From positions 124,001 through 188,000 of the forward strand of contig NZ_PVTQ01000003.1 of assembly GCF_003003355.1 (NCBI RefSeq): a DNA stretch of 64,000 bases, written 5' to 3'. Of the stretch, positions 14,408 to 35,154 are shown one piece after another. Position 1 is the stretch's first letter. Every line of letters starts with the position of its first letter. Source of the stretch: Donghicola tyrosinivorans. GTDB lineage: Bacteria > Pseudomonadota > Alphaproteobacteria > Rhodobacterales > Rhodobacteraceae. The position numbers and the translations under genes were made by a program. Below the pieces are notes generated by a model that was not told the DNA's origin, ran no database searches, and worked only from the letters and a program-made list of their open reading frames with translations.

Positions 14408-14896
14408 ATGAAGTTTATCTTTCCACTAATCTTAACCGCCATTGGAACTGGTGCCGGCGTCGGGGCCGGTCTTTACCTACCTCCTTCGACATTCATCGAT
14501 GAGGCAGATGCAGGCGGCAGCGAATGTCCAACTCCGGAAGTTTTGCCTGACTGGGAACCCGATCCGGACGCGGAGACAGAATATGTTAAACTTAGTAATC
14601 AGCTTGTAGTGCCTGTTGTGAGTGACAGAGGCGATAACGCTCTGGTCATCTTGAGCATAAGCTTCGAGGTTGATGAGCTGGGAAAGGAACTTGTGTTCCA
14701 AAAAGAGCCACGCCTGCGCGATCACTTGCTGCAGGTTCTGTTCAGCCACGCAAACCAGGGCGGCTTTTCAGGGCGCTATACCAATTCCGAGAAAATGACC
14801 CAACTCAGACGCCGCCTGTCCGATACGTCACGCAAGATCCTTGGTGCTTCGCTTCACGACGTTCTCATAACCGATCTAGTTCGCCAGGCTGGTTAA
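14408..14896 (+). CDS. FliL-like membrane protein, first copy
   Basis: A 162-residue protein with one N-terminal transmembrane segment (PLILTAIGTGAGVGAGLYL) and a periplasmic domain with ALVILSISFEVDELGKELV and LLQVLFSHANQGGF, ending IRKILG-like then LHDVLITDLVRQ. The architecture and the closing VLITDLVRQ resemble the FliL stator-associated family. A second, more typical FliL lies at 27.2 kb. It is the last gene of the flgB operon, eight bases after flgH. Confidence 0.7.
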   Translation: MKFIFPLILTAIGTGAGVGAGLYLPPSTFIDEADAGGSECPTPEVLPDWEPDPDAETEYVKLSNQLVVPVVSDRGDNALVILSISFEVDELGKELVFQKEPRLRDHLLQVLFSHANQGGFSGRYTNSEKMTQLRRRLSDTSRKILGASLHDVLITDLVRQAG

Positions 14897-15149
14897 TGAA
14901 CTGGCCCCATGTCTCGGACAGATATGCGGCGCTATAAAGCTTGCCTATTGATCGAACCGCTTCCTGAAGATCAGGACCTTGTTAGGCTTTGGTCGATGCT
15001 CTGCCCTTGCGCGCAGAATACGAGCGCTAGCTACTAGAGTGGATCTTCCGCATGTCAAAGTCAGACCATGTCGCAGCCCCGGTTCCTAGAGCAAGAAGGT
15101 GGACGGACTCATCATGCAAAGTCGCAATGGCCGATAAATCAATATGCTT
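14897..15149. other. Non-coding stretch after the flgB operon
   Basis: No convincing gene is present. Short open frames lack ribosome sites and family motifs. The stretch adjoins an IS3-family remnant and may contain further decayed mobile-element DNA, but none of it could be matched by eye. Confidence 0.4.
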
Positions 15150-15550
15150 CAGGCACTATGGAGACGTCCAACGCCGCATCAAGCAGGATTTGCGTGAAAC
15201 GCGGACCGGTGAGCTGGTTGCCCTGGCCTGAGCTGAAAACCTAAGGCTTTCCGCGCAACCTCAGGGCAGCGCACAATGCTAAAATGCGGAATTTTGCGGC
15301 CACCGTATTCGATAGCCGCTATGACAGAAACCTGTTTGCACCCCAATCCATGATAGCGAAAAGGTAAAGGAAGCCACGTCGTATGGGGATGTAATTGATA
15401 TCCGCGCACCAGACATGTTTCAGGCGTTCAATCATCAAATCCCAGAGAAGATAACGTCAGAGAGGGACTCTGGCTCCGGCACCTTCGCTTTCCGCCTCTG
15501 GCATACGGCGGGCAGGCCCATTCGCGTTGTCAACCGACGCATTTGCAAAA
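15150..15550 (-). pseudogene. Decayed IS3-family transposase (OrfB) remnant
   Basis: On the minus strand the translation gives MGLPAVCQRRKAKVPEPES, then in another frame YLLWDLMIERLKHVWCADIN, then YIPIRRGFLYLFAIMDW, RLSNTVAAKF and SGQGNQLTGPRF. These follow the order of the IS3-family integrase core (MGL..QRR, VWCADITYIP, GFLYLVAIMDW, WRLSNT, TDQGSQFTS). In-frame TAG codons replace the expected Trp before RLSNT and the codon after GKP, and at least two frameshifts are needed (near 15460 and 15530). The first acidic catalytic residue (ADI) is visible; the second reads GQG instead of DQG. The element is dead. No terminal repeats were identified. Confidence 0.75.
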
Positions 15551-16251
15551 ATTGCGCAGTTACGGATAGTCGCGAACGCAATACCACTGCATTGGCAATC
15601 ACGATTTATTATCTTTCAAGCTTCTTAATATCTTCGTTACAATCTGCGCATCAATCTTGGAATTGTGTCGCCTGAAACTCAGTAGCTCTAATCGGTACCG
15701 TCAGGGTTGCGGCTCGGGCTTGAAAAGGCTCTTTTTAAGCCAAGGGATGAAAGTTACACCAGAGGTGAATTGCTTCCTTTTCTGGGTCGTGATATAGGCC
15801 CCAGTTGGAATATGATTGCGTGCTTTGATGCACGCGGTTTTTCTCACGATCTCCACAAATTATGTGAGTCGAGCCGCGGATCACAACAACGCAAACCCGA
15901 ACGTGAAGCCATCCGATTCAGAATAATCTGCTAATAAAACATGCAAGTACCGCGTAGCATTTCTGGAACCTGCCTTCCGGAAGGGAGAGAGCATCACGCT
16001 TACAAATTAGGCAAAGTCAGCACTGTTTTCTCTAAGATTTAAGGAGCATATTCTGATTTTGCAGAGGTATTCACTTAAATTATGCTTCTTCAAAAGAAAT
16101 CATTCGCCCTGCAAAGAACCCGCTGCTAGGTATCGGGCTATCAAGTGATTCTTACAGGTTTCTTTTCTCTCAATTTTATAAAATCTCATTCAGCTGCAAT
16201 CATGGTTCGCAATACATTTTGCGCCATTCGCGGCTTTTGAAAGGTTGCGAA
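15551..16251. other. AT-richer non-coding stretch upstream of the secreted-protein pair
   Basis: About 700 bases without a supportable gene. Base composition is visibly AT-richer than the adjoining flagellar genes. An open frame at 15707-15934 has no ribosome site or recognisable motif. The stretch probably contains the promoter of the 16252 gene, but no clear box was identified. Confidence 0.4.
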
Positions 16252-17322
16252 ATGATATCTTTATTCAAGAAAAGCCTCTATACCGCGCTAAGTCTGGCCA
16301 TGATCAGCTTGGGTGCGTCGCAGGCTGAGGCTCAGGGAAACCGCACGGATGCGGGGCTGTGCCAGCAATACGCGGGCTTTCTGCGCCCGATGGTGAACAA
16401 GGCGATCCAGATGAACTCCAGATGTCTGGACTGGGATCGCGGCGTCCATGATGTTTATCAGATGCACTATGATTGGTGCATGAATAACAACCGCGACACG
16501 GTGATTGGCGCGGCAAGCCATGTCCGTGATCTGGTTGTGCAGTGTACGGGAAACTGGTTCCCTGAATCGCCGCTGAATGTTGCCGCGCCTGCGCCCGCTC
16601 AGATCCACCGTCCTGCCGCCGCGAAATGGCGCTTTGAGAGCCATGTGACCGGGTCATGTACTGCTGAGCTGCGCGATCCCTCCAAGCAAGATTACTTCGG
16701 CAACCTGATCCGCCTTGAGGCAAGCCGTGGTGGCCCGATCTATCTGATCTCGGACTTCACTGGCGCTGACGTGTATTCGGACGTACGTGTTGGCGGAAAA
16801 ACCTTCCGTCAGAATTGGGAGCACGAGTCCGATGTGGTCAAAACGCCCGTCGGTATGGATCTGCTAAGCGCCATGAAGCGCGGGAACGAAATTGACCTGA
16901 ACTTCTACACCCATGATCTGCGCTACTCGCTTTCGGGCTCGTCCGCGGCGATTGACCAGATGCTGCAGTGTGCGGGCATGGGGGCGCCGAAGCCTGCGCC
17001 CAAACCAGCAGCAGCCCGTGGCCCCAAGGTGATCTATGGCAGCTGCAAGCTGATCGTGGATGGCGTGCAATACGTGAATATCGCGCAGGGTTGCCCGATC
17101 TGGATGGACACCGATGGGACCTTCTGGATCAACACCGACCGCGCAAACTTCATGGGTGACTACATCGCCGAGCTGCGCCCCAGCGGCAATGGCTGGGGTG
17201 ATGGGCACTGGAACGGGCAGGCGGGCTCGACCCATGCTCAAGCCCCGCTAGGTGAAGACTTCCGGATGGGCAATGGCGGATGCTGGTCCAACCGCCGCGC
17301 CACAATCTGCGCCGCGCGCTAA
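16252..17322 (+). CDS. Secreted cysteine-rich protein of unknown function, three-part
   Basis: A 356-residue precursor with a signal peptide (cleavage near ASQAEAQ, residue 28) and ten later cysteines. Part 1 (about 29-100) is helical with Cys37, 58, 76 and 98 and the motif HYDWC. Part 2 (about 127-242) contains Cys136 and Cys240 and is shared with the next gene. Part 3 (about 259-356) has GSCKLIVDG, GCPIWMDTDGTFWI, HWNGQAGSTHAQ and GGCWSNRRATICA, with Cys265, 281, 344 and 353. The even cysteine count suggests periplasmic or extracellular disulfides. ATG at 16252 follows AAAGG; an earlier in-frame start would spoil the signal peptide. Function unknown. Confidence 0.8.
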   Translation: MISLFKKSLYTALSLAMISLGASQAEAQGNRTDAGLCQQYAGFLRPMVNKAIQMNSRCLDWDRGVHDVYQMHYDWCMNNNRDTVIGAASHVRDLVVQCTGNWFPESPLNVAAPAPAQIHRPAAAKWRFESHVTGSCTAELRDPSKQDYFGNLIRLEASRGGPIYLISDFTGADVYSDVRVGGKTFRQNWEHESDVVKTPVGMDLLSAMKRGNEIDLNFYTHDLRYSLSGSSAAIDQMLQCAGMGAPKPAPKPAAARGPKVIYGSCKLIVDGVQYVNIAQGCPIWMDTDGTFWINTDRANFMGDYIAELRPSGNGWGDGHWNGQAGSTHAQAPLGEDFRMGNGGCWSNRRATICAAR

Positions 17323-17330
17323 TGGGTTGA

Positions 17331-17357
17331 GCCGTCCCTGCGAGGGGGCGGCTTTTT
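17331..17357 (+). terminator. Rho-independent terminator after the first secreted protein
   Basis: GCCGTCCC pairs with GGGGCGGC (one G-T pair) around a short loop, followed by TTTTT. It starts nine bases after the stop codon and lies just before the DM9 gene, so the second gene may have reduced read-through or its own promoter. Confidence 0.8.
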
Positions 17358-17375
17358 CATTTCAGAAAGAAGTAC

Positions 17376-18275
17376 ATGATGAAACGTCATTCCTTGCCGC
17401 TGGCCAGCGCATTCCTTTGCCTGTTTGCAGGTAACGCTCATGCGCAAGAGCTATATGCCCAATCGGGCATGTGGGCCGTTTACCGACTAAGCCCCAAGAC
17501 CTGCTACGCAGACCTGACCGACTATACAAAGCCCCAAGGTTACGGGCAGAACCTATGGATCATGTTCGATGATGGTTTCTGGCGGCTGGGGACAGATTTC
17601 CCTGTGCCGAATTCGTCGATGACGGTCTACGTCGATAGCTCTGCCGGTTTTCCCGTGGAATATGAATCGGCTTACGGCATGAATTTGGCCCTGATCATGG
17701 GTGATCTCGAGCCCGTGCTGAAGAACGGCAACATGCTGAACCTGAACGTTCAGAATGAAGGGCCCGAGTACATTCTAGAGGGCTCGGCCTGGGCGATGGA
17801 CATGGCGTATGAATGCGCGGTGGGCCCTGATCACATGCAGCAAGCCATGGGCAACTACGTGGAGTGGACCATGATGCGCGGCGGCGCGGTTGATGGCGGC
17901 CCGATGGCTGCAGGATGGGATGGAAATGGCGATTTGTTCGCCTGTCTGGCGGATCATCACGATGGCCGTCACCCCGGCAAGATCAGCCATAGCTCGGGCG
18001 GGTGTCTGACCGGCTATGGCAATGAGGAATGGACCACGAGCGAGTATTTTGTGGCCATGAATCCGCAACTCTGGGTTCCGGCCTCGAACGGGAATGTGCC
18101 GCCGAACGCGACGCGGGTGGGTTGGGAAGCGAACGGTGAGCCGCTGTATTCCTGCCGTACGCAGTTCTTCAATGACATGCAGGTAGGCAAGGTGCGCCCC
18201 GGTCTGGACGGGTGCCACTTTGGCATGAATGGTGCTGAATTGACGATCCCGAACTATGAAGTGCTGGTCGAATAA
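17376..18275 (+). CDS. Secreted protein with two DM9 repeats
   Basis: A 299-residue precursor with a signal peptide ending AHAQ (residue 24). Residues about 34-149 form the same Cys-framed domain as in the preceding gene (Cys43 and Cys147). Residues about 163-228 and 232-298 are two DM9 (DUF3421) repeats: GKISHSSGGCLTGYGNEEW, and WVPASNGNVPPNATRVGW with GKVRPGLDGCHFGMNGAEL and a closing YEVLVE. Each repeat has a Cys pair 20 residues apart (190/210 and 260/280). DM9 proteins are known mainly from invertebrates, some as mannose-binding lectins; glycan binding here is inference. It lies between an IS3 remnant and motB. Confidence 0.82.
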   Translation: MMKRHSLPLASAFLCLFAGNAHAQELYAQSGMWAVYRLSPKTCYADLTDYTKPQGYGQNLWIMFDDGFWRLGTDFPVPNSSMTVYVDSSAGFPVEYESAYGMNLALIMGDLEPVLKNGNMLNLNVQNEGPEYILEGSAWAMDMAYECAVGPDHMQQAMGNYVEWTMMRGGAVDGGPMAAGWDGNGDLFACLADHHDGRHPGKISHSSGGCLTGYGNEEWTTSEYFVAMNPQLWVPASNGNVPPNATRVGWEANGEPLYSCRTQFFNDMQVGKVRPGLDGCHFGMNGAELTIPNYEVLVE

Positions 18276-18340
18276 CATCCGGCCAAGGCTTTTGTGGTGA
18301 CAGGGCAGGCCGCGCAGCAAACTACAGCGCATTTGAATCC

Positions 18341-18355
18341 TTAAGCTTTCCATAA
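18341..18355. promoter_or_regulatory. Candidate CtrA box upstream of motB
   Basis: TTAA-N7-ATAA followed by C, one mismatch from TTAA-N7-TTAA, in the 123-base gap before motB and 43 bases from its ATG. It suggests that motB-flgE-flgK-flgL-flgI starts its own transcription unit. Confidence 0.4.
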
Positions 18356-18398
18356 CCTCTGACCGGATATTCCGGATGAGGTGGGAAAGGTGGTGGAC

Positions 18399-19214
18399 AT
18401 GGCTGCTGATAAAGGCGCGCCAGTCATCATCAAAAGGAAAAAGGTTGTGGCGGCCGAAGGCCACCACGGTGGGGCGTGGAAGGTCGCGTATGCGGACTTT
18501 GTCACGGCGATGATGGCGTTTTTCCTGTTGATGTGGCTGTTGAATGCGACAACGGAACAACAACGAAAAGGCTTGGCGGATTACTTTTCGCCAAGCATTC
18601 CTGTGGCTCGGATTTCGGGCGGCGGGCAGGGGAACTTTGGCGGTGAAAGCGTGGTTTCCGAGGATGTCCTGATTATTGAAGGGACTGGGGCGACCTCGCT
18701 TCACCCGACCGAAGCGCGAGGCGCGCGCGGTGCGGTTGAGGCGGCGGCAGCGCAGATTGAGGCAGCTTTGAGCGATCCCGATTGGATCGATCTACGCCGA
18801 CATCTGGATTTTCGTGTCACAGATGAAGGCTTGGTCATAGAGATGTACGCGCGACCTGATGAACCGCTTTTCAAGCACCTCAGCGCAGAGCCTGAGCCGA
18901 TGATTCTTGTCTTGGCAGAGCATGTTGCTGATCTTTTGAAAGATCACGAAAACGCATTGGCCATCGCGGGGCATTTGGCGTCAACGCCAGTGGTCATGCG
19001 GAATAACCCGACGTGGGATTTATCCACGGAGCGGGCAAATAAATTCCGAGAGATGCTGGAAAAGCAAGGTCTTGCGCCTGATCGGGTCCAGCGAGTCACG
19101 GGGCATGCAGATCGCGATCTGCGACGGACAGATCTACCGATGGATCCTCGAAATGAACGGATTGTGGTGACACTTTTGGTGGAAGCACCCCCGATCCCGT
19201 TAGGCTGGCGTTAA
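18399..19214 (+). CDS. motB: Stator protein MotB
   Basis: Peptidoglycan-anchored stator subunit of 271 residues. The single transmembrane segment is WKVAYADFVTAMMAFFLLMW, with the proton-binding Asp at residue 33. A linker and an OmpA-like C-terminal domain follow (LAIAGHLAST, LSTERANKFREML, RVTGHADRDL, NERIVVTLL). ATG at 18399 is preferred over GTG at 18381 because AAAGG lies eight bases upstream. motA is about 10 kb away in another operon. Confidence 0.93.
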   Translation: MAADKGAPVIIKRKKVVAAEGHHGGAWKVAYADFVTAMMAFFLLMWLLNATTEQQRKGLADYFSPSIPVARISGGGQGNFGGESVVSEDVLIIEGTGATSLHPTEARGARGAVEAAAAQIEAALSDPDWIDLRRHLDFRVTDEGLVIEMYARPDEPLFKHLSAEPEPMILVLAEHVADLLKDHENALAIAGHLASTPVVMRNNPTWDLSTERANKFREMLEKQGLAPDRVQRVTGHADRDLRRTDLPMDPRNERIVVTLLVEAPPIPLGWR

Positions 19215-19262
19215 GCCTGAGGGTCTAACGATGGGGCATCGATCACTTTGAAAGGTGCCCCC

Positions 19263-20564
19263 ATGACGATTTCTTCTTCGCTTAACGCCGGTGTGGCCGG
19301 ACTGGCCGCGAACGCCGGTCGCTTGGCGGCGATTTCGGACAACATCGCGAACGCCTCGACCTACGGCTACAAAAAGGTTGAGGCGGATTTTCACTCTATG
19401 GTGCTTGGCAGCAGCGGCGGCAAGTATTCGGCTGGCGGCGTGCGGGTCACGACAGAGCGAGTGATTGATACCTCTGGCTCTCTGGTGACCACCTCAAATT
19501 CAACCGATCTTGCCGTGCGGGGCAGGGGCTTTTTGCCCGTCACCTCAACCACTGACGTGGCGAACGGCAATTCGCAGATGATGCTGACGACCACCGGTTC
19601 GTTCCACACGGATTCGGACGGTTTTCTGACCACGGCGTCCGATCTGGTTTTGATGGGCTGGCCTGCGCTGCCTGACGGCACGTTTCCCCTGTATTCACGT
19701 GACACCGCCGAAGGGCTGGAGCCTGTGCGCATCAACGTAAACCAGCTCTCGGGTGAGCCTACGACCAAGATCGGTTTGGGCGTGAACCTGCCCGCTAGCG
19801 CGACCGCCGCCGAGAGTGATGGCACCCAACAGGAACTGTCGATCGAATATTTCGACAACCTTGGGACGTCCCAGAACCTGCAGATTTCGTTCACGCCCAC
19901 CGTAGCGGCTGCGGGCGCGACAGGGACGAATGAATGGACGATGCAGATCCACGACGGTGCAACGGGTGGCACCTTGGTGGGCGAATACACCCTGACTTTT
20001 GACGCCTCGCGCGCGGCAGGCGGTACGCTCGCTTCGGTCAGTTCAAGCTTTGGCGGGGCGTATGATCCCGCGACGGGCAGCATTTCAGTGATGGTTGAAG
20101 GAGGCCCGATGCAGATCGATATCGGTGAGATCGGTGGCGCCTCAGGGATGACCCAGCTGTCCGACGATTTCGCCCCCCTGTCGATCACAAAGGACGGCTA
20201 TGAAATCGGGAACGTCACCTCGGTTGAGGTAGACGACTCTGGCATCGTTCACGCGATCTTTGACACAGGCATCACCCGTGAAATCTTCAAGGTTCCGCTG
20301 GTTGACCTGCCGAACCCGAACGGCCTGATCTCGCTGGATAGCCAGACCTACATGCCCTCGCCGGAAAGCGGCAGTTTCTTCCTTTGGGATGCGGGCGACG
20401 GCCCGACCGGCGATATCATCAGCTATTCGCTTGAGGAATCCAACGTGGACGTCGCTGGTGAACTGACCAATCTGATCCAGACCCAGCGTGCTTATTCCTC
20501 GAACGCCAAGATCATCCAAACCGTGGATGAGATGCTGCAGGAAACCACCAACATCAAGCGATAA
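19263..20564 (+). CDS. flgE: Flagellar hook protein FlgE
   Basis: Hook subunit of 433 residues. The N-terminal signature is AISDNIANASTYGYKKVEADF, a central domain contains TDLAVRGRGFLPVT, and the C-terminal helix is LTNLIQTQRAYSSNAKIIQT. It lies between motB and flgK. ATG at 19263 follows GAAAGGTG; an in-frame TTG five codons earlier is ignored. Confidence 0.95.
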   Translation: MTISSSLNAGVAGLAANAGRLAAISDNIANASTYGYKKVEADFHSMVLGSSGGKYSAGGVRVTTERVIDTSGSLVTTSNSTDLAVRGRGFLPVTSTTDVANGNSQMMLTTTGSFHTDSDGFLTTASDLVLMGWPALPDGTFPLYSRDTAEGLEPVRINVNQLSGEPTTKIGLGVNLPASATAAESDGTQQELSIEYFDNLGTSQNLQISFTPTVAAAGATGTNEWTMQIHDGATGGTLVGEYTLTFDASRAAGGTLASVSSSFGGAYDPATGSISVMVEGGPMQIDIGEIGGASGMTQLSDDFAPLSITKDGYEIGNVTSVEVDDSGIVHAIFDTGITREIFKVPLVDLPNPNGLISLDSQTYMPSPESGSFFLWDAGDGPTGDIISYSLEESNVDVAGELTNLIQTQRAYSSNAKIIQTVDEMLQETTNIKR

Positions 20565-20575
20565 GGAGATAGGCC

Positions 20576-21919
20576 ATGTCGCTTGGTAGCGCGATGAACA
20601 ATGCCCTTTCGGGGCTGACGGCGTCGGCCCGCGGGGCCGAGGTGATTTCTTCGAATTTGGCGAATGCGACGAATGCCTCTTACGCGCCCCAAGCGGTTGA
20701 TCTCGGGACGAACGCGGTTGGTGGCGGGGTCAAAATTCTATCGGTGTCCCGACAAGTTGATCTTGGCTTGCAGGGGGCGATCAATCTGGGCTTGGCCAGC
20801 CAATCGGCTGCCGCAGTTCAGGTAGAGGCCGCCACGACCGTTGCAAAGGCCTACGGCACGCCAGGAGAGACGGGCAGTCTTTCGTCCTATCTAGAGCAGT
20901 TGGATTCCACGCTTATCGCGGCGTCCGCTGCGCCAGAGTCAGATGTGCGCCTCCAATCGGTTCTGGATGCGGCAAGCGATCTGGCGAAGGCGATTAATGC
21001 AGGTTCGGACAGTATCCAGCAGGCCCGCCTTTCCGCTGACGAAGCCATCGCCGAGGATGTTGCGCGCGCGAATGATCTACTTGGCCAGATTGCCGATCTG
21101 AACTCTCAGATCGTCAGCGTATCATCCCATGGACAGTCTCCGAACGCTTTGCTGGATGCCCGTGATCAGGCGGTCTCAAGCCTGTCAGAGTTGATACCGG
21201 TTCGATCAACCACGCGCGACAATAACACCGTTGCCCTTTATTCGACCGGCGGCAGGATTCTGTTGGACGGGAATCCGGCGGAGATCGGCTTTTCATCGTC
21301 GCAAGTGATGGTCTCCGAAATGTCCTTTGAAAACGGTGCGCTTTCTGGACTTACGATTAACGGCAAGGCTGTGGAGAGCGCTGAGAACGGTCTTGGTGGG
21401 GGCCGCCTTGGAGCGAATCTCGCCCTGCGAGATTCCGTTTTACCCCAAGCGCAAGAGCAGCTTGGCCGGATATCAGAGGCCCTCCAAACGTCTTTGGCAC
21501 TGGATGCAGGTAGCGTTATTCAGGCGGATAGCACCGGTAAAATGGCCGTAAATCCGGCATTCGACCCCTCGCAGGGTGGCGAACTTTGGCGTTTACGCGA
21601 AGGGATGACAGCACTCTCCGCGCAAAGCGCGGGTGCCGCAGGCTATCTGGGAACAATGTCAGAGAGTCTGCAAAGCGGAACGCTTTCATCGCTAATCACA
21701 GATGGCGCATCGAATGCTGCCCGTGCACAGCTTCGGGCGGAAGATCAGCTGGTTATTCAATCCACAAAACTCACCGCGCTAAATGCGCAGCGCAGTGGAG
21801 TGAACAGCGACGATGAGTTGCAAACACTGCTGCTGACCGAACAAATGTACGCCGCGAATGCTCAGGTTATGACGGCGATTGAGGAAATGCTGGATATGTT
21901 GATGGGGGTTCTGCGATGA
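20576..21919 (+). CDS. flgK: Hook-filament junction protein FlgK (HAP1)
   Basis: First hook-associated protein, 447 residues. The N terminus shows MNNALSGLTASARGAEVISS and NLANATNASYAPQAVDLGT; the C-terminal helix is LLLTEQMYAANAQVMTAIEE. The middle is Ala/Ser-rich and variable. AAGGAGAT precedes the ATG. It overlaps flgL by ATGA. Confidence 0.93.
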   Translation: MSLGSAMNNALSGLTASARGAEVISSNLANATNASYAPQAVDLGTNAVGGGVKILSVSRQVDLGLQGAINLGLASQSAAAVQVEAATTVAKAYGTPGETGSLSSYLEQLDSTLIAASAAPESDVRLQSVLDAASDLAKAINAGSDSIQQARLSADEAIAEDVARANDLLGQIADLNSQIVSVSSHGQSPNALLDARDQAVSSLSELIPVRSTTRDNNTVALYSTGGRILLDGNPAEIGFSSSQVMVSEMSFENGALSGLTINGKAVESAENGLGGGRLGANLALRDSVLPQAQEQLGRISEALQTSLALDAGSVIQADSTGKMAVNPAFDPSQGGELWRLREGMTALSAQSAGAAGYLGTMSESLQSGTLSSLITDGASNAARAQLRAEDQLVIQSTKLTALNAQRSGVNSDDELQTLLLTEQMYAANAQVMTAIEEMLDMLMGVLR

Positions 21920-22890
21920 CGTCGATTGCACTTGGTGATTTGGCTCGAAACATGATGCTTCGGGCAAGCAACCAGCGCCTTATGTCCGAAATGCAAACCC
22001 TGTCGGAGACCGTTGCCCAAGGGCGTGTCTCGGATCTTGCTGAGCATCTGAAAGGCGACTTTCGTCCGCTTGCTGCGATAGAGGGGCGCATGGCCACATT
22101 GTCTGCCTTTGAGCAGGTGATGGCCGAGGCCTCTGCGTTTCTTGGCGCTCAACAGTCGGCCGTCACGCAGCTTGGTGAAAACGCGACTGCCCTGTCTGAA
22201 ACCCTGCTCTTTTCCGATGCGAGTAGTGGCTCAAATACTGAGGCAGTTTTGGCGCAAGAGGCGCGCAACGTTTTCACGCAGACTGTAGGCGCATTGAACG
22301 GCTCGGCCGGAGGGCGCAGCCTGTTTTCTGGGGCGAATGTAAGAGCATCTCCTTTGCCGCCGGCTGATGAAATGCTTGAGCAACTGACCCTTGAATTTGG
22401 CGCTATCGCAGATCTTCATCAGCGGGCGGCAGCTATCAAGGATTGGTTTACTGCGGACGGCGCAGGGTACGCACAAGCATATAGCGGCAATGATGACCAA
22501 CTTGTGGGGTATGCGCTGTCCTCGGGTGACCGTATCACCGCATCTGTTACGGCAATGGATCCAGATTTCAGAGAGTTTCTGGCGCAAACCGCAACTGCGG
22601 CTTTGGTTCCCGAGGTTGAAGTTCTTGAAAGCATCGGAGCCGATCTGGCAGCGTCCGCTCAGGCATTCGCCGAGAAATCCGGTCTTATTGGCCTGTCCGA
22701 AAGCAGGCTAGAGGCCATGAGCGTCAGAGACGCGGCTGAGCGTTCTTCTCTAGAAATTCAGCTGACGGACATGACGGTTCCCGACCTCTACGAAGTGGCC
22801 GTCCGACTTGAGGAGAACCAGCAAGCGCTTGAGCGGATGTATCTGGTGACCTCAAAGCTTTCTTCCATGTCGCTGGCGGATTATTTGTGA
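21916..22890 (+). CDS. flgL: Hook-filament junction protein FlgL (HAP3)
   Basis: Flagellin-like junction protein of 324 residues between flgK and flgI. The N-terminal helical region (ARNMMLRASNQRLMSEMQTL) and the C-terminal helices (LYEVAVRLEENQQALERMYL, then VTSKLSSMSLADYL) fit the flagellin/FlgL coiled-coil plan. The assignment rests on this plan plus the FlgK neighbour; it is not a filament flagellin, because the conserved flagellin N terminus is missing. Confidence 0.88.
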   Translation: MTSIALGDLARNMMLRASNQRLMSEMQTLSETVAQGRVSDLAEHLKGDFRPLAAIEGRMATLSAFEQVMAEASAFLGAQQSAVTQLGENATALSETLLFSDASSGSNTEAVLAQEARNVFTQTVGALNGSAGGRSLFSGANVRASPLPPADEMLEQLTLEFGAIADLHQRAAAIKDWFTADGAGYAQAYSGNDDQLVGYALSSGDRITASVTAMDPDFREFLAQTATAALVPEVEVLESIGADLAASAQAFAEKSGLIGLSESRLEAMSVRDAAERSSLEIQLTDMTVPDLYEVAVRLEENQQALERMYLVTSKLSSMSLADYL

Positions 22891-23987
22891 TGTTTAAGCA
22901 GCTTGTTTTTATAGCCACCGTGTTTTTCGCCATGCCTGCCGTGGCGGAGACAGTTCGCGTCAAAGATCTTGTCGAATTTGACGGAGTGCGCGGAAACGAA
23001 TTGGTAGGCTATGGGTTGGTTGTCGGCTTGCATGGTACTGGTGATGGCTTCCGGAATGCACCTTACACCGAAGAAATGCTCACGACGATGCTCGAGAGAT
23101 TGGGGGTTAATGTTACTGGCGAACAGTTGCGGCCGCAAAACGTGGCGGGTGTGTTCGTGACGGCGACGCTTCCACCATTTGCCCGCTCCGGAGCGCAGAT
23201 CGACGTCACAGTCTCTGCAATTGGCGATGCCGAAAGCTTGTTGGGCGGGACGTTAATCATGACGCCCCTCAATGCGGCGGACGGGGATATCTATGCAGTG
23301 GCGCAAGGTACAGTAATTGCGGCTGGCGCATCAGTGGAAGGCACCGCAGCTTCGGTTACCGAAGGGGTCCCGACCTCTGGTACGATCCCGGCGGGTGCCC
23401 GCGTCGAACGAGAAGTTGATTTTGAGTTCTCCTCGCTTGAGCGCTTGCGTATGGCGCTGCGGAATCCGGATTTCACGACAGCCATGAGACTTGAGAAAGC
23501 CGTTAACCAGTTCTTTGGTCGCCGGGTTGCGCTGATGCATGATGGCGGAACGATCGAACTGGATATTGCTGCGACCGGCGCCGTATCGCCCGCACACGCG
23601 ATTGGCTTGCTCGAGAATATATTGGTTGAACCAGAGCAAAAAGCGCGTGTTGTCGTAGATCAGAGATCGGGAACTATCGTTATGGGGGACGCTGTTAGAA
23701 TCTCGAATGTCGCGGTTGCACAGGGAGGACTGACATTACGTGTTCAAGAAGCGCCACAGGTCTCTCAACCCAACCCGTTCAGCCCTGGTGACACTGTGGC
23801 GGTCCCTAGAACAACTGTCGGCCTTGAGCAACAAGAGGGATCACTGGCCGAGCTTCACTCGGGGACGACCCTGACCGAAGTGGTGGAAGGGCTGAACGCC
23901 CTTGGTGTTTCCCCGCGTGATATGATCGATATCCTTAAAAGCATCAAAGCGGCCGGCGCTCTGCATGCCGAGATGATTGTAAGGTAG
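22890..23987 (+). CDS. flgI: Flagellar P-ring protein FlgI
   Basis: Periplasmic P-ring subunit of 365 residues with a signal peptide (LVFIATVFFAMPAVA) and the strongly conserved block LVGYGLVVGLHGTGDGF. Further blocks are PPFARSGAQIDVTVSAIGDA, VVDQRSGTIVMGDAVRIS and LNALGVSPRDMIDILKSIKA. ATG at 22890 overlaps the flgL stop by one base (TGATG). It ends five bases before the convergent fliP gene. Confidence 0.96.
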   Translation: MFKQLVFIATVFFAMPAVAETVRVKDLVEFDGVRGNELVGYGLVVGLHGTGDGFRNAPYTEEMLTTMLERLGVNVTGEQLRPQNVAGVFVTATLPPFARSGAQIDVTVSAIGDAESLLGGTLIMTPLNAADGDIYAVAQGTVIAAGASVEGTAASVTEGVPTSGTIPAGARVEREVDFEFSSLERLRMALRNPDFTTAMRLEKAVNQFFGRRVALMHDGGTIELDIAATGAVSPAHAIGLLENILVEPEQKARVVVDQRSGTIVMGDAVRISNVAVAQGGLTLRVQEAPQVSQPNPFSPGDTVAVPRTTVGLEQQEGSLAELHSGTTLTEVVEGLNALGVSPRDMIDILKSIKAAGALHAEMIVR

Positions 23988-23992
23988 TGTGT

Positions 23993-24712
23993 TTACGTTC
24001 CGTAGCTTTCGATCAAGCGAAGTGTGATTAGCGACCAACCGTCGCTGAGCACGAAAAAGCCAAGTTTAAATGGCAGGGATACAACCGCTGGGGGCACCAT
24101 CATCATCCCCATCGACATCAGCACAGCTGAAACCACCAGATCGATGACCAGAAACGGCAGGTAGATCAGAAACCCTACCTGAAAAGCGTGCGAGATTTCC
24201 GAGATGACGAATGCAGGAATAATGGTTGTCAGGGTCGTATTTTCGCTTTGCTCGCCAATCGTCCTAGCCTGTTCCATCGCGTAGAGCGTATCCGGGTCAG
24301 TTCGTTTCTGCATAAAGGAAACAAATGGTTCACTTGCTCTGATGAAACCTTCTTCGAATGAAAGTGTTCCGGCGCGTACAGGTTGAATGCCATCGTTCCA
24401 CGCCTGTAGAAAAATTGGCTCCATCACAAAAAATGTCATGAAAAGCGCAAGACCGATCAAAAGCATGTTCGGTGGGGACTGCTGAAGCCCGATGCCTTGG
24501 CGCATTATCGCGAATACGGTCACGAAGAATGGAAAGCAGGTGACCATAATCAGGATTGCGGGGGCAGCTGCCAGGAACGTTCCTGTCGCAATGATGGCAA
24601 GAACAGTGTCGCTCGCTTTTTCCGAGAGCGACAGGTTGGACGCTGCGAAGTCTTGTGCTGACAAACTTTGAGGCAGCAAGATAAAGAGGGGCAGAAAAGC
24701 TTTCCTAGACAT
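23993..24712 (-). CDS. fliP: Flagellar export gate protein FliP
   Basis: Core export gate subunit of 239 residues with a cleavable signal peptide (LPLFILLPQSLSAQ) and four transmembrane helices. FliP signatures are FPFFVTVFAIMRQGIGLQQ, SPPNMLLIGLALFMTFFVM and the C-terminal SMGMMMVPPAVVSLPFKLG. It is the last gene of the fliF-fliH-fliN-fliP operon and overlaps fliN by eight bases. Confidence 0.96.
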   Translation of the reverse strand: MSRKAFLPLFILLPQSLSAQDFAASNLSLSEKASDTVLAIIATGTFLAAAPAILIMVTCFPFFVTVFAIMRQGIGLQQSPPNMLLIGLALFMTFFVMEPIFLQAWNDGIQPVRAGTLSFEEGFIRASEPFVSFMQKRTDPDTLYAMEQARTIGEQSENTTLTTIIPAFVISEISHAFQVGFLIYLPFLVIDLVVSAVLMSMGMMMVPPAVVSLPFKLGFFVLSDGWSLITLRLIESYGT

Positions 24713-24980
24713 CGGAATCTGGATGTTTGACTTCGGTCAGTTTTACGGAAAGTTGCCGGCGGCCATTACCATCACTTTCTTGCAGGATGCCGCGTGCGAC
24801 GACGCGCTCGCCAATCATAATGTCGACGGGATCATCGATCTGACTATCGAGGTAAATAACGGTGTCGGCGTCCATGTCCATGAGCTCACCCAAGCTGCAT
24901 CGGGCACGACCGACCGAGATCCACAGATCTACCGGAAGATCAGAAAATCGATGAGAGAATTGCTTATCCTTGGGTTCCAT
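24705..24980 (-). CDS. fliN: Flagellar motor switch protein FliN
   Basis: C-ring protein of 91 residues with the SpoA-type domain: DLPVDLWISVGRARCSLGEL, then VIYLDSQIDDPVDIMIG and VVARGILQ. ATG at 24980 has AAGGT six bases upstream and lies inside the end of fliH (17-base overlap). Its normal partners FliM and FliG are not present in the window. Confidence 0.92.
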   Translation of the reverse strand: MEPKDKQFSHRFSDLPVDLWISVGRARCSLGELMDMDADTVIYLDSQIDDPVDIMIGERVVARGILQESDGNGRRQLSVKLTEVKHPDSDV

Positions 24981-25554
24981 CGGATACCTTTGCCGTCTTG
25001 TTCTCAAAAAAATCCGCAAGAAGTGTTTCGATTTCTGAGACCGTTTCAGAGGGGTTCAAGATTTGAGTGTTTTTGCCAAAGCTAAGGCAGACTTGCTCTG
25101 GGGTGAGGTCTTCGTCGTCTTGCAGCGGGATGGAATCCAAGTCCTCACTCAGAAGCTTTTCCAAACGTTCCCGAGCTGACGGGTGGAGGCGTAAAACAAC
25201 GTCGCTTTTGGTCGCGCGTGACGTCGCATCCAGGATTCTCTCAACAATGATCGCACCCAGATTTTGGTGAGCAACCTTCCCCATGATTTTTCCGAGCATG
25301 GGCAGGAGAGCAGTCTCAAGATCGTTGAAAATCTGTCGCTCAATCTCGGCACGGCTAAGTGAGAGGTCTTGTAGGTTTTCTGCCAACCCACTGGTGATGC
25401 GCCTGTTTTCGCCATCCTGTGCCTTCAAGGCATCCGCCCAACCTGCGTTATAACCATCTTCGAAGGAACTTAACTGGACTTCACTCACTTGGTCGTCGGC
25501 TTCAATGACAGGCGCAGGAGCAGCAAAGTCTTCGAGAACGTGCATTATCGTCAT
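24964..25554 (-). CDS. fliH: FliH-like flagellar export ATPase regulator
   Basis: A 196-residue protein between fliF and fliN. The N-terminal half is acidic with FEDGYNAGWADALKAQDG, typical of the start of FliH; the second half (IMGKVAHQNLGAIIVERIL, VVLRLHPSARERLEKLL) resembles the FliH/HrpE peripheral-stalk fold. It would regulate FliI and deliver it to the gate. The start overlaps fliF by ATGA. Similarity is family-level rather than strong, but position supports the call. Confidence 0.75.
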   Translation of the reverse strand: MTIMHVLEDFAAPAPVIEADDQVSEVQLSSFEDGYNAGWADALKAQDGENRRITSGLAENLQDLSLSRAEIERQIFNDLETALLPMLGKIMGKVAHQNLGAIIVERILDATSRATKSDVVLRLHPSARERLEKLLSEDLDSIPLQDDEDLTPEQVCLSFGKNTQILNPSETVSEIETLLADFFENKTAKVSDGTQG

Positions 25555-27122
25555 GTTTGCTGCTCTCTTTCATCTTCCAGCCAATTGCGCAGAATGATCA
25601 TGGTCTCATCCCGTTTGTCTTCAATGGCTTGTCGCATTCTGGAAATCGGGTCTTGTGCCTCTGCCGCGGTGTCGAAAGCGATCGCTGGAAAGCTGTCGGG
25701 AAGGATGGGCTCGCCCATATCGATTTCCCCATCCAGCGGGGTCAATTCCGATGCGTCTTCGGCGGACCGTTCCGGGGCTGGAAGTGCACTTTGCGTAGGC
25801 CGTAGTAATAGCGGTCGAACAACAAATAGCCCAAGGATGAGAGCTACAGCGGCGGTTGCTCCGTATTTCAGCAAAGACTCGCTGGAAGGGATCGTGAAGT
25901 CGTAGGGCGAGGGGGGACTGACCTCTGCCATCGACTGCGCTGTTTGGAAGACCATGGACTGGACAGTAATCTCATCGCCTCGTTCAGCGTCGAAGCCTAC
26001 GGTGTCTTCAACAAGTGCTTGAAGAGCGGCAATTTCAGCGGCCTCTCTCGGGACCATATTGCCATTTTCATCAGCAACACCGTTCACCAAAACCGCGATG
26101 GTTTGCCTGCGAATGCCGCCGGGCGTTCGCAGCACTTCGCGGCGGGTCTCGGAGATCTCATAATTAATCCGCTCAAGTGTTTCATTCGAGGTCTCTGCAC
26201 GATCACCCGCCCGGCTTTCCGATTTCTCAGGCAAGTCGCTGGCAACCGTCATGCCTGAGGGGGATGAATTCGTGGACGCTACATTCTCTTGGGTTTCCGC
26301 ACTGATCGCGACCCGACTGTCAGGATCGATCACGCGCTCCACGATCGATTCCCTCTCATTTATCCGGTCGATGCTGATTTCCACCATCGCGTTTCCGGGG
26401 CCAACGCGCGCCTCAAGCAACCGCTCGACCTTCTGCGAGAGCACTTCCGATTGGGCCTGATCCGTGAAATCGGCCGCTTCGTCACGCTCACCTGAAAGCA
26501 GACGGCCAGAATCATCTACGATCGTCACTTTTTCCGGAACCAGACCTGAGACCGCTGAAGAGACCATAAATTGGAGGGCCTTGGTCTGAGATTGGCTGAG
26601 GGTCCCCGGCCCGGCCAAGCTTAGCGTTACCGATGCAGACATATCCTCTCTGCGCCCGAATGGCCCGCTTTGATCTGCGGCAATATGGACGCGCGCGTGA
26701 CGGATCGAGGAGTTTGTCTGGATCGTTCTGGCCAATTCTCCTTCCTGCGCCCGCAGATAGGTCGCATTGAACATCTGGGTCGTCGTCCCGAAGCCGCTTA
26801 GTCCGTCCAGTAGCTCATATCCGGCGGTTCCGGATGCGGGCATGCCTTCATAAGCAAGCTGCATCCGCAATGCATCGCGGCTTTCCGTATCTACGAAGAT
26901 GTTGCCGCCTTCTACTTTGTGCGGCGTATTTCGCGCCTCGAGTGCAGCGATCACCTCGCCTGCGGCGGTTGGATCAAGACCACCAAACAAGAGTGTGTAT
27001 TTTGTTTGGTTGGCGAAAACCGCCAAGGTAAGAATCGCCACGAACATTCCGACGGTCGCCGCGGCAGCAGTGATTTGCTGCTTTTTCGTCAAGGCAGACA
27101 GCATCTTTAACAGGTCATTCAT
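25551..27122 (-). CDS. fliF: Flagellar MS-ring protein FliF
   Basis: MS-ring subunit of 523 residues with two transmembrane segments: one near residues 18-36, followed by YTLLFGGLDPTAAGEVIAAL, and one near 410-433 (YGATAAVALILGLFVVRPLL). Further FliF blocks are NTPHKVEGGNIFVD, GFGTTTQMFNATYLRAQEGE and RHARVHIA. The C-terminal tail that normally binds FliG is present. It begins the minus-strand fliF-fliH-fliN-fliP operon and is divergent from fliL. Confidence 0.95.
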   Translation of the reverse strand: MNDLLKMLSALTKKQQITAAAATVGMFVAILTLAVFANQTKYTLLFGGLDPTAAGEVIAALEARNTPHKVEGGNIFVDTESRDALRMQLAYEGMPASGTAGYELLDGLSGFGTTTQMFNATYLRAQEGELARTIQTNSSIRHARVHIAADQSGPFGRREDMSASVTLSLAGPGTLSQSQTKALQFMVSSAVSGLVPEKVTIVDDSGRLLSGERDEAADFTDQAQSEVLSQKVERLLEARVGPGNAMVEISIDRINERESIVERVIDPDSRVAISAETQENVASTNSSPSGMTVASDLPEKSESRAGDRAETSNETLERINYEISETRREVLRTPGGIRRQTIAVLVNGVADENGNMVPREAAEIAALQALVEDTVGFDAERGDEITVQSMVFQTAQSMAEVSPPSPYDFTIPSSESLLKYGATAAVALILGLFVVRPLLLRPTQSALPAPERSAEDASELTPLDGEIDMGEPILPDSFPAIAFDTAAEAQDPISRMRQAIEDKRDETMIILRNWLEDEREQQT

Positions 27123-27177
27123 TACACACTCCGGTAGGGGACTTTCTGTCTCTGCCCTCCGTTTTGCACCAAACGCC

Positions 27178-27192
27178 TTAACAATCGGTTAG
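27178..27192. promoter_or_regulatory. Candidate CtrA box between fliF and fliL
   Basis: TTAA-N7-TTAG followed by C, one mismatch from TTAA-N7-TTAA, placed 55 bases from the fliF ATG and 40 bases from the fliL ATG. It is one of the best matches in the flagellar cluster. Confidence 0.45.
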
Positions 27193-27232
27193 CCTCTCTT
27201 TGCCAGAATGGTCTTCAGTCAAGGAGGCCAGG

Positions 27233-27715
27233 ATGAGCCAGGTAGAATCGGAAACTCAGGAAAAAAAGGGACGAATCGTCGGGCCGCTGATCGGAATCGC
27301 GCTTTCGATTCTCGGGGGCGTCGGCGGCTATGCCGTCGTTGGAATGGATGCATTGGGAATCTTTAGCCAGAATACGTCCATGCACACGCCCGCGGAAATC
27401 ACGGGACTTGAGCTTGAATACGCCTATGTCCCGCTGCCCATGATGATTGTTCCGATGGGCAGTGTCTTGGATGGGCGGCAACTACGCTTTCAGGGTCAAG
27501 TTGAAGCGAAACCAGAAAATGCGGGCAAGGTTGAGGCGATGATCCCGCGTCTGGTCGACGTTTTTCAGGACTATTTGCGCGCACTGAGTGTTGAAGACCT
27601 CGATCGCTCAGCGGCGCTTATGCACATCCGATCCCAGCTTCTGTTTCGCGCCCGTTTGGTGGTCGGCGAAGAAGAAGTTTCGGATTTTCTCATCATGGAA
27701 TTCGTATTGAATTGA
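27233..27715 (+). CDS. fliL: Flagellar basal-body protein FliL
   Basis: Stator-associated membrane protein of 160 residues: a short charged N terminus, one transmembrane helix (IVGPLIGIALSILGGVGGY) and a periplasmic domain with YVPLPMMIVPMGSVLDGRQL and a C terminus ending SDFLIMEFVLN, as in typical FliL. AAGGAGG lies five bases before the ATG at 27233. It begins the long operon through flhB. Confidence 0.9.
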   Translation: MSQVESETQEKKGRIVGPLIGIALSILGGVGGYAVVGMDALGIFSQNTSMHTPAEITGLELEYAYVPLPMMIVPMGSVLDGRQLRFQGQVEAKPENAGKVEAMIPRLVDVFQDYLRALSVEDLDRSAALMHIRSQLLFRARLVVGEEEVSDFLIMEFVLN

Positions 27716-27726
27716 AAGGGGCCAAT

Positions 27727-28071
27727 ATGGATTTTCTGGCAGATATCATCTTGGGGGCTGGCGCTTTAGGTGCCGGATTTTATTGCTTTATTCTGGCAAG
27801 GCGGGTGCGCTCGCTCAATGACTTGGAAAATGGTGTTGGTGGTGCTGTCGCGGCCCTCTCGAAGCAGGTCGAGGATCTGAATACCACGCTAGTCGCCGCC
27901 AAGGGCGCAGCCGATAATTCGAATACGTCACTCACAGAACTCACAGGCCGCGCTGAAAATGTGACCCGTAAGCTAGAGCTGATGATGGCTTCAATGCACG
28001 ATATCGAAGCAAGGCGCCCTACGCCTGAGCCGGTTTTTTCGCATCGCTCTCTTAGGGAGGGCCAGTCGTGA
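27727..28071 (+). CDS. Small membrane-anchored coiled-coil protein, flagellar operon
   Basis: A 114-residue product with an N-terminal hydrophobic helix (IILGAGALGAGFYCFILAR) and then a long heptad-rich region (LSKQVEDLNTTLVAAKGAAD, LTGRAENVTRKLELMMA). The family is not recognised with confidence. ATG at 27727 has AAAGGGG upstream; a TTG at 27712 would overlap fliL. It sits between fliL and motE and overlaps motE by GTGA, so a role near the stator or basal body is likely. Confidence 0.7.
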   Translation: MDFLADIILGAGALGAGFYCFILARRVRSLNDLENGVGGAVAALSKQVEDLNTTLVAAKGAADNSNTSLTELTGRAENVTRKLELMMASMHDIEARRPTPEPVFSHRSLREGQS

Positions 28072-28694
28072 AAAGACGCGGATTTAGTGCCTTAACTGTT
28101 ATTTCGACTATGTTTATCGCTGCAGGCGCTCTGCGCATTGGGATGGGAGCAGAGGCCGCGATCGCATTTGCACCCGCGATGACCTTCACTGATGAGGACT
28201 ACTTAGAGGCGCCGGTTCTGCGCAGCGCTGAAGACCTGAAATTACTACTCAAAGCATTTGCTGAGCGCGATGCAGACCTGAGAGCTTTCGAGCAACAGCT
28301 TGAAGCGCGCGCAGTAGAACTAACAGCTCTAGAAGACAGCATAGAGGCGCAAAAGCTTGCGCTAAACGATCGTCGCGTCGCAGCCGAAAAGGCTGAGGAA
28401 GAATTGCGAGCCACGATGACGCTAGCCGAAGTCGCCGCCGAAGACGATCTGAGCAAGCTGACCAAGGTTTATGAAAACATGAAGCCAAAAGAGGCCGCGA
28501 ATTTGTTCGCAAGTATGGAGCCAAAGTTCTCGGCAGGTTTTCTTGGTCGCATGAAACCACAGAGCTCGGCCGCAATCATGGGGCAACTGCCAACTGAAAT
28601 TGCGTATTCGATCAGCGTTCTTCTAGCGGGAAGAAATGTCGAGGCAGGCAACTACGCAGATGCGATTAGCCAAGAAGCTGCGGTGCAAGAATGA
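28068..28694 (+). CDS. motE: MotE-like motility chaperone
   Basis: A 208-residue protein with a signal or anchor segment, a long central coiled coil (about residues 60-125, Ala/Glu-rich), and a MgtE_N-like C-terminal region (LTKVYENMKPKEAANLFASM, LGRMKPQSSAAIMGQLP). This matches the MotE/FliG-middle-like family; rhizobial MotE is a periplasmic chaperone for MotC. GTG at 28068 overlaps the previous stop. It lies directly upstream of motA. Gene name is by family similarity. Confidence 0.78.
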   Translation: MKRRGFSALTVISTMFIAAGALRIGMGAEAAIAFAPAMTFTDEDYLEAPVLRSAEDLKLLLKAFAERDADLRAFEQQLEARAVELTALEDSIEAQKLALNDRRVAAEKAEEELRATMTLAEVAAEDDLSKLTKVYENMKPKEAANLFASMEPKFSAGFLGRMKPQSSAAIMGQLPTEIAYSISVLLAGRNVEAGNYADAISQEAAVQE

Positions 28695-29560
28695 TCGGGC
28701 TGGTTGGTGTCGCTGTAATCTTCTCAATGGTCTTTGGGGGCTATCTGCTCGCTGGCGGTAAAATGTCGATCATTCTGCATTCACTGCCTTTCGAGATGAT
28801 GATGATTGGAGGCGCCGCGGTCGGTACCTTTATGATCAGCAATGACCTTTCTGCAATCAAACACACTGGTAAGGATTTGCTGAAAGTCTTTAAAGGGCCA
28901 GCGTGGAAGCGTGACGATTATAGAGATCTCCTTTGCCTGCTATTTTCTTTGATTAGGGTGTCCAGAAAAAATCCAGTTGAGCTTGAAAGCCATATAGAAA
29001 GCCCCAAGGATTCACAGATTTTTTCGCGTTATCCGAGGATTTTGGGTGACGCTGAAGCAGTCGCCCTGATTTGCGATACACTTCGAGCTGGTAGTTTGAA
29101 TTACGATGACCCTCATCAAGTGGAAGAAGTTCTTGGTAAAAGGCTAGATAAACGAAATCACGAAGCTTTGCATTCAAGTCATGCATTGCAAACTATTGCG
29201 GACTCGCTCCCTGCGCTTGGAATCGTAGCTGCGGTTCTAGGTGTGATTAAGACGATGGCATCTATCGACAAGCCACCTGAAGTCCTGGGCGGTTTGATTG
29301 GTGGCGCGTTGGTTGGTACATTCTTGGGCGTATTCTTGGCATATGGAATTGCGGCTCCATTTGCTTCAAAGATAAAGGACATTGAGGAGAAAGATTCTAG
29401 CTTCTACGATTTGATTAAGGAAGTTCTTGTCGCAGATCTATTTCGACATGCTCCTAACTTGTGTATCGAAGTAGGCCGTCAAAATGCGCCTCAATCAATG
29501 CGCCCGCCTTTCGATGAACTTGAGGAATTTCTGAACGAAATTAAAAGGGGTTCTGAATGA
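28691..29560 (+). CDS. motA: Stator protein MotA
   Basis: Proton-channel stator subunit of 289 residues with four membrane segments. Family blocks are PFEMMMIGGAAVGTFMIS, the cytoplasmic loop with LICDTLRAGSL, and the last two helices LGIVAAVLGVIKTM and GALVGTFLGVFLAYGIAAPF. It overlaps motE and the next gene by ATGA. Base composition changes within this gene: the first 230 bases resemble the upstream genes, and the rest is AT-richer. Confidence 0.93.
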   Translation: MIGLVGVAVIFSMVFGGYLLAGGKMSIILHSLPFEMMMIGGAAVGTFMISNDLSAIKHTGKDLLKVFKGPAWKRDDYRDLLCLLFSLIRVSRKNPVELESHIESPKDSQIFSRYPRILGDAEAVALICDTLRAGSLNYDDPHQVEEVLGKRLDKRNHEALHSSHALQTIADSLPALGIVAAVLGVIKTMASIDKPPEVLGGLIGGALVGTFLGVFLAYGIAAPFASKIKDIEEKDSSFYDLIKEVLVADLFRHAPNLCIEVGRQNAPQSMRPPFDELEEFLNEIKRGSE

Positions 29561-34725: not shown

Positions 34726-34728
34726 TTT

Positions 34729-35064
34729 ATGACCGAGGATGAAAAAGCGCTACTCGAAATCGCGCAGATCTTGGCAGAAAGAAAAGGGCGTGCGCTTTCT
34801 AAACTGCGCATGATGGAAAAAGCTGCAATTGATAGAGTTGAGGGATTGCAAATCGTCAGGTCTGACGCGCATTGCGATCCCAATTGGATGACGCGGCCTT
34901 TAGCGGGGAATTGGTCAGCTTGGGCTTCTAAAGAAATTGAGAAGACCAACCTATCCATCGCTCGGATTCGCGCGCAAATGCCTGTTACAGAGCATCAAGC
35001 GAGACTGGCATTTGGCCGCCGCCTCGCTTTGGAAGACGTATTGAAAATACTTGCCCCTAAATAG
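34729..35064 (+). CDS. Small protein at end of flhB operon, unknown
   Basis: A 111-residue, mainly helical, charged product starting at ATG 34729, three bases after flhB. Notable segments are EIAQILAERKGRALSKLRMM and ARLAFGRRLALEDVLK. No signal peptide or family was recognised; a FliJ-like or chaperone role is possible from size and place but unsupported by motif. It is the last gene of the flagellar cluster, and its composition matches the AT-richer genes upstream. Confidence 0.6.
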   Translation: MTEDEKALLEIAQILAERKGRALSKLRMMEKAAIDRVEGLQIVRSDAHCDPNWMTRPLAGNWSAWASKEIEKTNLSIARIRAQMPVTEHQARLAFGRRLALEDVLKILAPK

Positions 35065-35154
35065 TGGAAAGCACCAACTCAAGAGACTGGATAGACGTGT
35101 AACAGATGCATTCCGGTTTTATTCAAGCACTACTCGCCATAAAGGAGACCAAAT

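Follow-up and report, generated by a model that had tools for sequence, protein, structure and literature searches.

A protein of the DM9 lectin family encoded within a bacterial flagellar cluster raises the question of whether it serves the flagellum or stands there for another reason. DM9 lectins have been studied as immune receptors of animals. In the window, as we call the whole stretch of 64,000 nucleotides of Donghicola tyrosinivorans DNA analysed here, a gene at 17376-18275 of the forward strand encodes a protein of 299 amino acids that begins with what looks by eye like a Sec-type signal (about amino acids 1-23). An earlier note on this DNA had claimed two tandem DM9 repeats with GK..GC..E cores and equal cysteine spacing, had placed the gene between flgH and motB, and had suggested that its product could be a motility-coupled adhesin or glycan-binding factor. 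It proposed as checks a Pfam profile search, a structure prediction of both repeats and a comparison of the motility loci of relatives.

Membership in the DM9 family is secure, by sequence and by predicted fold. The Pfam profile PF11901 (DM9) matches the 299-residue protein at 78.5 bits (cut-off 26.2), with E=4.9e-22. A phmmer search of the PDB sequences (E up to 1) returned four distinct sequences, the best at E=4.5e-10, all of them Natterin-3 entries recognised from their PDB codes or titles as oyster CGL1 or its mutants; no NCBIfam family matched at E up to 1. Repeat 1 (17856-18065, forward strand; amino acids 161-230) carries the pair C190/C210 together with D182, K202 and E218, and repeat 2 (18066-18272, forward strand; amino acids 231-299) carries C260/C280 with E251, K272, H281 and E288. 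The repeat cores and the cysteine spacing, 20 residues in each pair, are as the earlier note had described them. In composition (GC 0.571, GC3 0.69) the gene lies within the range of the flagellar genes that were measured (GC3 0.53-0.72).

An AlphaFold2 model of the protein was built on A5, an alignment of 20 bacterial DM9 sequences that is a hand-picked subset of the DM9 rows and includes the window protein. A combined MAFFT alignment had misplaced fragments of the neighbouring ORF1, so the input was restricted to DM9 rows. Block-mean pLDDT is 85-98 over residues 161-299 and below 50 over residues 50-136. Foldseek placed CGL1 first (E=2.9e-9, TM 0.85 on the target) and MFP2 next, and VIA-align superposed the DM9 half on CGL1 with Z 22.9 and an rmsd of 1.5 over 134 residues, and on nematode MFP2 with Z 14.6. 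The predicted model has two CGL1-type repeats at 161-299, and a chance match to DM9 is ruled out by this fold together with the profile E-value. The name beta-prism used in that note has to be given up, since the authors of the CGL1 structure speak of a new 'N (natterin)-type lectin fold' (PMC4932603). The likeness between twin DM9 repeats and MFP2 had been reported earlier (PMC3110756); Ascaris MFP2 (2bjq, 2bjr) shares the twin-DM9 fold at Z 14.0-14.6, but it is a eukaryotic cytoskeletal protein with 14-17% identity. A fold in common with CGL1 does not alone show function.

CGL1, also named CgDM9CP-1 (PDB 5id8, 5idb, 5mh1-5mh3), is a lectin of the DM9 family from the oyster Crassostrea gigas that binds mannose; it has 25-26% identity to the window protein. 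Its site A is formed by Asp22, Lys43, His52 and Glu59 with Phe126/Ala127 from the other repeat, and its site B by Lys114, Tyr123 and Glu130 with Phe55/Ala56, without a counterpart of Asp22 (PMC4932603). Mannose binding was abolished by the mutations D22A and K43A and little affected by H52A (PMC5712788). The residues of repeat 2 were mapped through the phmmer alignment and those of repeat 1 through its register with repeat 2. In this mapping, site 1 corresponds to D182, K202, L211 and E218 with M284/N285, and site 2 to E251, K272, H281 and E288 with Y214/G215. For Asp22/Lys43, repeat 1 offers D182/K202 and repeat 2 E251/K272, with Glu in place of Asp; Lys and Glu recur at either sugar site, and the hydrogen-bonding residues are kept in both apart from that replacement. 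As for stacking, site 2 retains H281 and Y214, whereas site 1 has L211 and M284 instead and lacks the aromatic stacking of CGL1. Judged by these residues, pocket 2 looks the more complete of the two predicted pockets. Across the 20 rows of A5, the window included, K272, E288, C190, C210 and C280 are invariant, E218 is present in 19 rows, and K202, E251 and C260 are present in 18. The D182 column holds Glu in 16 of the 20 rows and Asp in the window protein alone.

The cysteine pairs set the bacterial protein apart from CGL1, which has Ala at both places in its first repeat (phmmer alignment) and is described as free of disulphides (PMC4932603). Such pairs would suit a protein adapted to an oxidising compartment, and each DM9 repeat would probably be held by one disulphide, C190-C210 and C260-C280. 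The window protein further differs from CGL1 in its additional N-terminal domain.

DM9 is best known in invertebrates, as the earlier note said, though bacterial DM9 is already known in print: a set of 477 DM9 proteins includes prokaryotes, among which L. pneumophila and Enterobacter cloacae are named (PMC5712788), and DM9 proteins of Legionella species have been reported (PMC4256840). The printed proteins share the DM9 repeats with the window protein; they are listed as being of unknown function or as members of a phylogeny, and the N-domain architecture is undescribed in the parts of these papers that deal with them. LectomeXplore suggests DUF3421 as an oyster-type lectin (PMC7778903), and the natterin review's own search for natterin-like proteins gave no bacteria (PMC8402412). 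It has been proposed that the DM9 domain arose in prokaryotes (PMC5712788), and a bacterial set with the predicted fold and the sugar-site residues of CGL1 offers a testable link to that proposal. A limited search of the open-paper literature found neither a binding study of any bacterial DM9 protein nor DM9 joined to a domain of the IalB/MotY-N type.

Among genomes DM9 is sporadic. With the window's own genome counted, it was found in 1 of 4 genomes of the genus and 3 of 295 of the family; in the class the count was 5 of 385, four of the five scoring over the cut-off; the same search gave none in 14 control genomes. The species collection was scanned with a pattern that favours canonical repeats; 87 stretches matched, and 34 loci were kept, some from one and the same organism. 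They span Alphaproteobacteria, Betaproteobacteria, Thiotrichaceae, Beggiatoa, Saprospiraceae, cyanobacteria and others. Thirty-three of the 34 were scanned with Pfam (L025, which contains X, was excluded; the translations of L029 and L037 begin upstream of the likely start), and all 33 proteins exceed the DM9 cut-off. Extra domains over the cut-off were Ricin_B_lectin in two, a eukaryotic-type carbonic anhydrase in two and Methyltransf_FA in one; below it, one Ricin_B and one B_lectin were counted, other matches of that strength being left out of the count. In the Saprospiraceae loci L036 and L047, DM9 repeats and the carbonic anhydrase lie in one protein. Searches for the DM9 protein among plasmid and phage records gave no match at E<=1e-3, and a scan of viral contigs gave 68 pattern matches and no confirmed relative. 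When the flagellar proteins of the window were used as query, a flagellar neighbour appeared at 1 of 41 DM9 locus stretches (overlapping and short ones included, the window excluded). It stands in G222, where a lone DM9 repeat remnant (L004, 9361-9615) has a flagellin gene on one side and, on the other, a gene that we take to be Fic-like.

The N-terminal domain of the DM9 protein (17448-17819, forward strand; amino acids 25-148) is homologous to the middle domain (16618-16980, forward strand) of ORF1, a frame of 367 amino acids at 16219-17322 of the same strand, for which a likely start (ATG 16252) and a signal peptide were recognised by eye. BLASTP aligned residues 18-148 of the DM9 protein with the ORF1 middle domain at E=7e-7 and 27% identity, and the N-domain with an ORF1 relative in G039 at E=6e-10; that the domain is shared with ORF1, as these alignments indicate, is new here. 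The C-terminal domain of ORF1 (17026-17319, forward strand; CKLIV...HAQ...CAAR), for which no Pfam family was found, has the position that DM9 occupies in other proteins. Like the window protein, the DM9 protein of G175 (L002) has an N-domain followed by two DM9 repeats, with 36% identity over 113 amino acids of the DM9 part; in BLASTP the DM9 parts align and the N-domains do not. The N-domain of the G175 protein, unlike that of the window protein, belongs to set A8, which is weakly similar to set A7 (hhalign probability 55%, E=1.2e-4, 38 columns). It is homologous to the N-domains of proteins of G215 and G222 (E=2e-19 and 1e-20) that end in the ORF1-type domain rather than in DM9. Also unlike the window, the 16 kb stretch of G175 has no flagellar match, and its DM9 gene follows what we take to be a valyl-tRNA-synthetase-like gene. 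Profile searches of the 295 family genomes found A7 in five and A8 in four.

Five further proteins from N-domain loci were scanned; two have a VHL beta domain at the C-terminus (L103 with 28.6 bits and L111 with 21.3, cut-off 21) and three have no domain over the cut-off. The VHL beta domain is best known from a eukaryotic tumour suppressor. In these two proteins (L103, 913-1752; L111, 1201-2046) the N-domain is of the kind found in ORF1 and the DM9 protein. By sequence comparison, then, N-domains of one kind precede varied small C-terminal modules, namely DM9, VHL beta and an unnamed domain, as would be expected if exported binding proteins of these bacteria were assembled from a modular toolkit.

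For the fold of the N-domain we relied on ORF1; the DM9 protein's own N-domain is modelled with pLDDT below 50 over 50-136. The ORF1 model, made from six sequences, has a mean pLDDT of 66 with block means of 64-88 over residues 141-250. Foldseek gave nothing for it at E<=0.001, the best row (E 0.077) being another fold. In a second look with VIA, in which Z 7-8 can be background, the model matched Bartonella IalB (3dtd) with Z 11.0 and rmsd 2.9 over 117 residues, the LPHT-ring chain 8z5n_A with Z 9.7, and the N-domain (residues 9-150) of the Vibrio stator-ring protein MotY (2zf8) with Z 9.0 over 114 residues; the next row fell to Z 5.2. This predicted likeness has no family match at sequence level: Pfam IalB matched neither the DM9 protein nor ORF1 at E<=1, and at E<=5 it matched neither the DM9 protein nor relatives of ORF1; Pfam MotY was not listed for either protein or the relatives; and the A7 and A8 profiles found weak unrelated rows and no IalB or MotY among the PDB sequences. 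ORF1 gave a sub-threshold match to DUF1176 (E=0.0047). Unlike MotY, ORF1 and the DM9 protein lack a C-terminal OmpA-like peptidoglycan-binding domain; no OmpA match is listed by Pfam for the DM9 protein, which ends in DM9. The IalB domain also occurs in Sinorhizobium RgsG, a periplasmic protein of the growth pole (PMC7327166), and a search for literature naming MotY and IalB together turned up a vaccine paper. If confirmed, the predicted likeness would connect a poorly understood envelope family with a motor component.

The gene does not lie directly between flgH and motB: a fliL paralogue (14408-14896, forward strand; PF03748), an IS3 remnant and ORF1 intervene. Here flgH, fliL and motB were identified by Pfam, and the hem, tsaD, gpsA, flh, fli, aconitase, valS and Fic genes carry the names that we presume from recognition. 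Downstream of the DM9 gene follows motB (18381-19214, forward strand; MotB_plug and OmpA). In G039 the order is gpsA-tsaD-hem genes-motB...flhB-[fliL-flgH...flgB]-fliI. In the window motB...flhB is reversed, with motB facing fliL and the flhB end facing the hem genes. Judged by gene order against G039, the inverted block motB-flgE-flgK-flgL-flgI-fliP..fliF..motA-flhA-fliR-flhB extends over 18355-35064, and DNA homology with relatives resumes at 18355, towards the motB start, and at 35381, towards the hem genes. G675 likewise has hem genes before motB, and so does G003, a genome of another genus, though with a gap of 6 kb, so the order in the window is probably derived. A match to motB was present in 52 of 61 genomes, the window's own included, from which 20 relatives were picked by hand (G039 and 19 genomes of other genera); upstream of motB the stretches covered about 13 kb, or 8 kb in the case of G039. 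In none of the 20 does a flgH or fliL match adjoin motB, and G675 and G676 agree; because fliL diverges fast, a missing fliL match carries less weight here than a missing flgH match.

Breakpoint 1 (14897-18354), just downstream of the fliL paralogue, contains the IS3 remnant, ORF1 and the DM9 gene. The remnant (15157-15435, reverse strand) is an OrfB-like transposase of the IS3 family interrupted by a stop; tblastn gave 61% over 93 amino acids (E=1.4e-33), and the DNA also matches an annotated IS3 transposase. Within breakpoint 2 (35065-35380) there is a match of 82-83 bases to plasmid DNA of Thioclava and Phaeobacter, in a part of the plasmids where no gene is annotated. The two breakpoints have matches of 9-10 bases at most with each other. 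A tRNA-Thr gene (35392-35467) adjoins breakpoint 2. An IS3 element at breakpoint 2 was considered on account of a transposase-start-like frame seen by eye, but was rejected: the matching plasmid DNA bears no such annotation, and OrfA of the H1 element gave no match there.

In the gap between ORF1 and the DM9 gene there is a terminator-like hairpin (17329-17354, forward strand). Over 14880-18600 seven terminator-like sites were counted on both strands, against 3.8 +/- 1.8 in shuffled sequences, and the promoter scan gave two sites against 3.0 expected. No forward-strand terminator was found between the DM9 gene and motB; hence the two genes may share a transcript.

No DM9 or ORF1 match was found beside motB in the 20 sampled relatives, nor in G675 and G676; absence from related motility loci was one of the outcomes that the earlier note had named as refuting its idea. 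Together with the counts of 1 in 4 genus and 3 in 295 family genomes, this led us to reject DM9 as a conserved flagellar component; the protein is probably not an inherited part of the motor. Membership in the flagellar system is unsupported and the motility link is weak. Of the role that had been suggested, the glycan-binding part is retained, on the profile match, the predicted fold and the site residues, and the motility part is weakened by the sporadic distribution and the breakpoint location.

We propose, with a probability of about 0.55, that the gene encodes an exported protein which binds glycans through an exchangeable lectin module, and that it lies in the flagellar cluster as a result of rearrangement. 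Because of (i) the DM9 profile match, (ii) the predicted fold and (iii) the conserved sugar-site residues, a lectin-like working of the C-terminal half is likely; this half would be a tandem DM9 module of the CGL1 type with sugar pockets at the repeat boundary. The N-terminal half would be an IalB-like envelope domain, which in relatives is joined to different C-terminal modules. The protein would most likely bind a glycan of the mannose type, or one like it, either on the cell envelope or beyond it, for attachment or polysaccharide capture. The flagellar position of the gene would be due to the inversion of the motB-flhB block at a site with IS3 debris. The lectin reading is favoured by the joining of Ricin_B_lectin to DM9 in two proteins above the cut-off and one below it; against it count the lack of both hydrophobic stacking residues in site 1 and the Glu at the essential Asp22 place in repeat 2. 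Also in favour of the proposal is the ORF1 relative of G039, which stands at a non-flagellar place beside a ricin-B protein. A terminator after ORF1 with none before motB counts against the proposal in so far as co-expression with motor genes would be possible.

The same half could instead bind a protein, a lipid or a metal, or be a structural module of an exported protein, without any sugar. MFP2, a nematode sperm-motility protein, has the same fold, one pocket is without stacking residues, and carbonic anhydrase is joined to DM9 in 2 of the 33 scanned proteins, so that we keep this as a tentative alternative; but the Lys and Glu positions through which CGL1 forms its hydrogen bonds to mannose rank with the best conserved in the bacterial rows, and lectin domains do occur together with DM9. 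That ORF1 and the DM9 gene are non-functional cargo, stranded by the IS3-associated rearrangement and heading for loss, would agree with the breakpoint location beside a dead transposase, the patchy distribution of DM9 and the single repeat remaining in G222. The intact frame of 299 codons, the intact repeat cores and a GC and GC3 in the range of the neighbours make it improbable.

A factor coupled to the motor in the manner of MotY, whose N-domain would dock at the basal body or stator and in which DM9 would replace OmpA and hold a glycan of wall or surface, also appears unlikely. The place of the gene near fliL and motB, the missing forward terminator before motB, the G222 remnant next to flagellin, and the MotY and LPHT-ring rows obtained for the homologous domain of ORF1 would all suit it. 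However, the predicted ORF1 fold is at least as near to IalB, a non-flagellar protein, and the Pfam scans are without a MotY or IalB match. The lack of a DM9 or ORF1 match beside motB in the sampled relatives, the single genus genome with DM9 and the single flagellar neighbour among 41 stretches argue in the same direction, as do the ORF1 relatives of G039 (62%) and G676 (57%), both away from the flagellar locus. A more particular version, a lectin-tipped relative of MotY in which the IalB/MotY-N domain docks near the stator, DM9 holds a glycan and co-expression with motB dates from after the inversion, we regard as very improbable; were it true, an animal-type lectin would be wired into a bacterial flagellar motor.

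The ORF1 relative of G039 is flanked by the ricin-B protein and by an aconitase-like gene; in the former (L074, 7079-7819) a C-terminal domain of the ORF1 type is joined to a ricin-B lectin domain. Within the inverted block, the export-apparatus proteins FlhA, FliR, FlhB and FliP (23993-24712 and 30852-34725) are unusually diverged from those of G039, a member of the same genus, with 38.6%, 26.9%, 35.1% and 48.4% identity respectively, whereas FlgG, FlgE and FlgI have 75-80%, and FliP of G039 and G675 share 81%. Between motA and flhA lies an ORF of 432 amino acids (29557-30855) that is unmatched in the G039 cluster map. Further along the window, at 44736-45593, a secreted-looking protein ends in VPLPATG...RRRKK, which resembles a sorting tail of the VPLPA-CTERM type.
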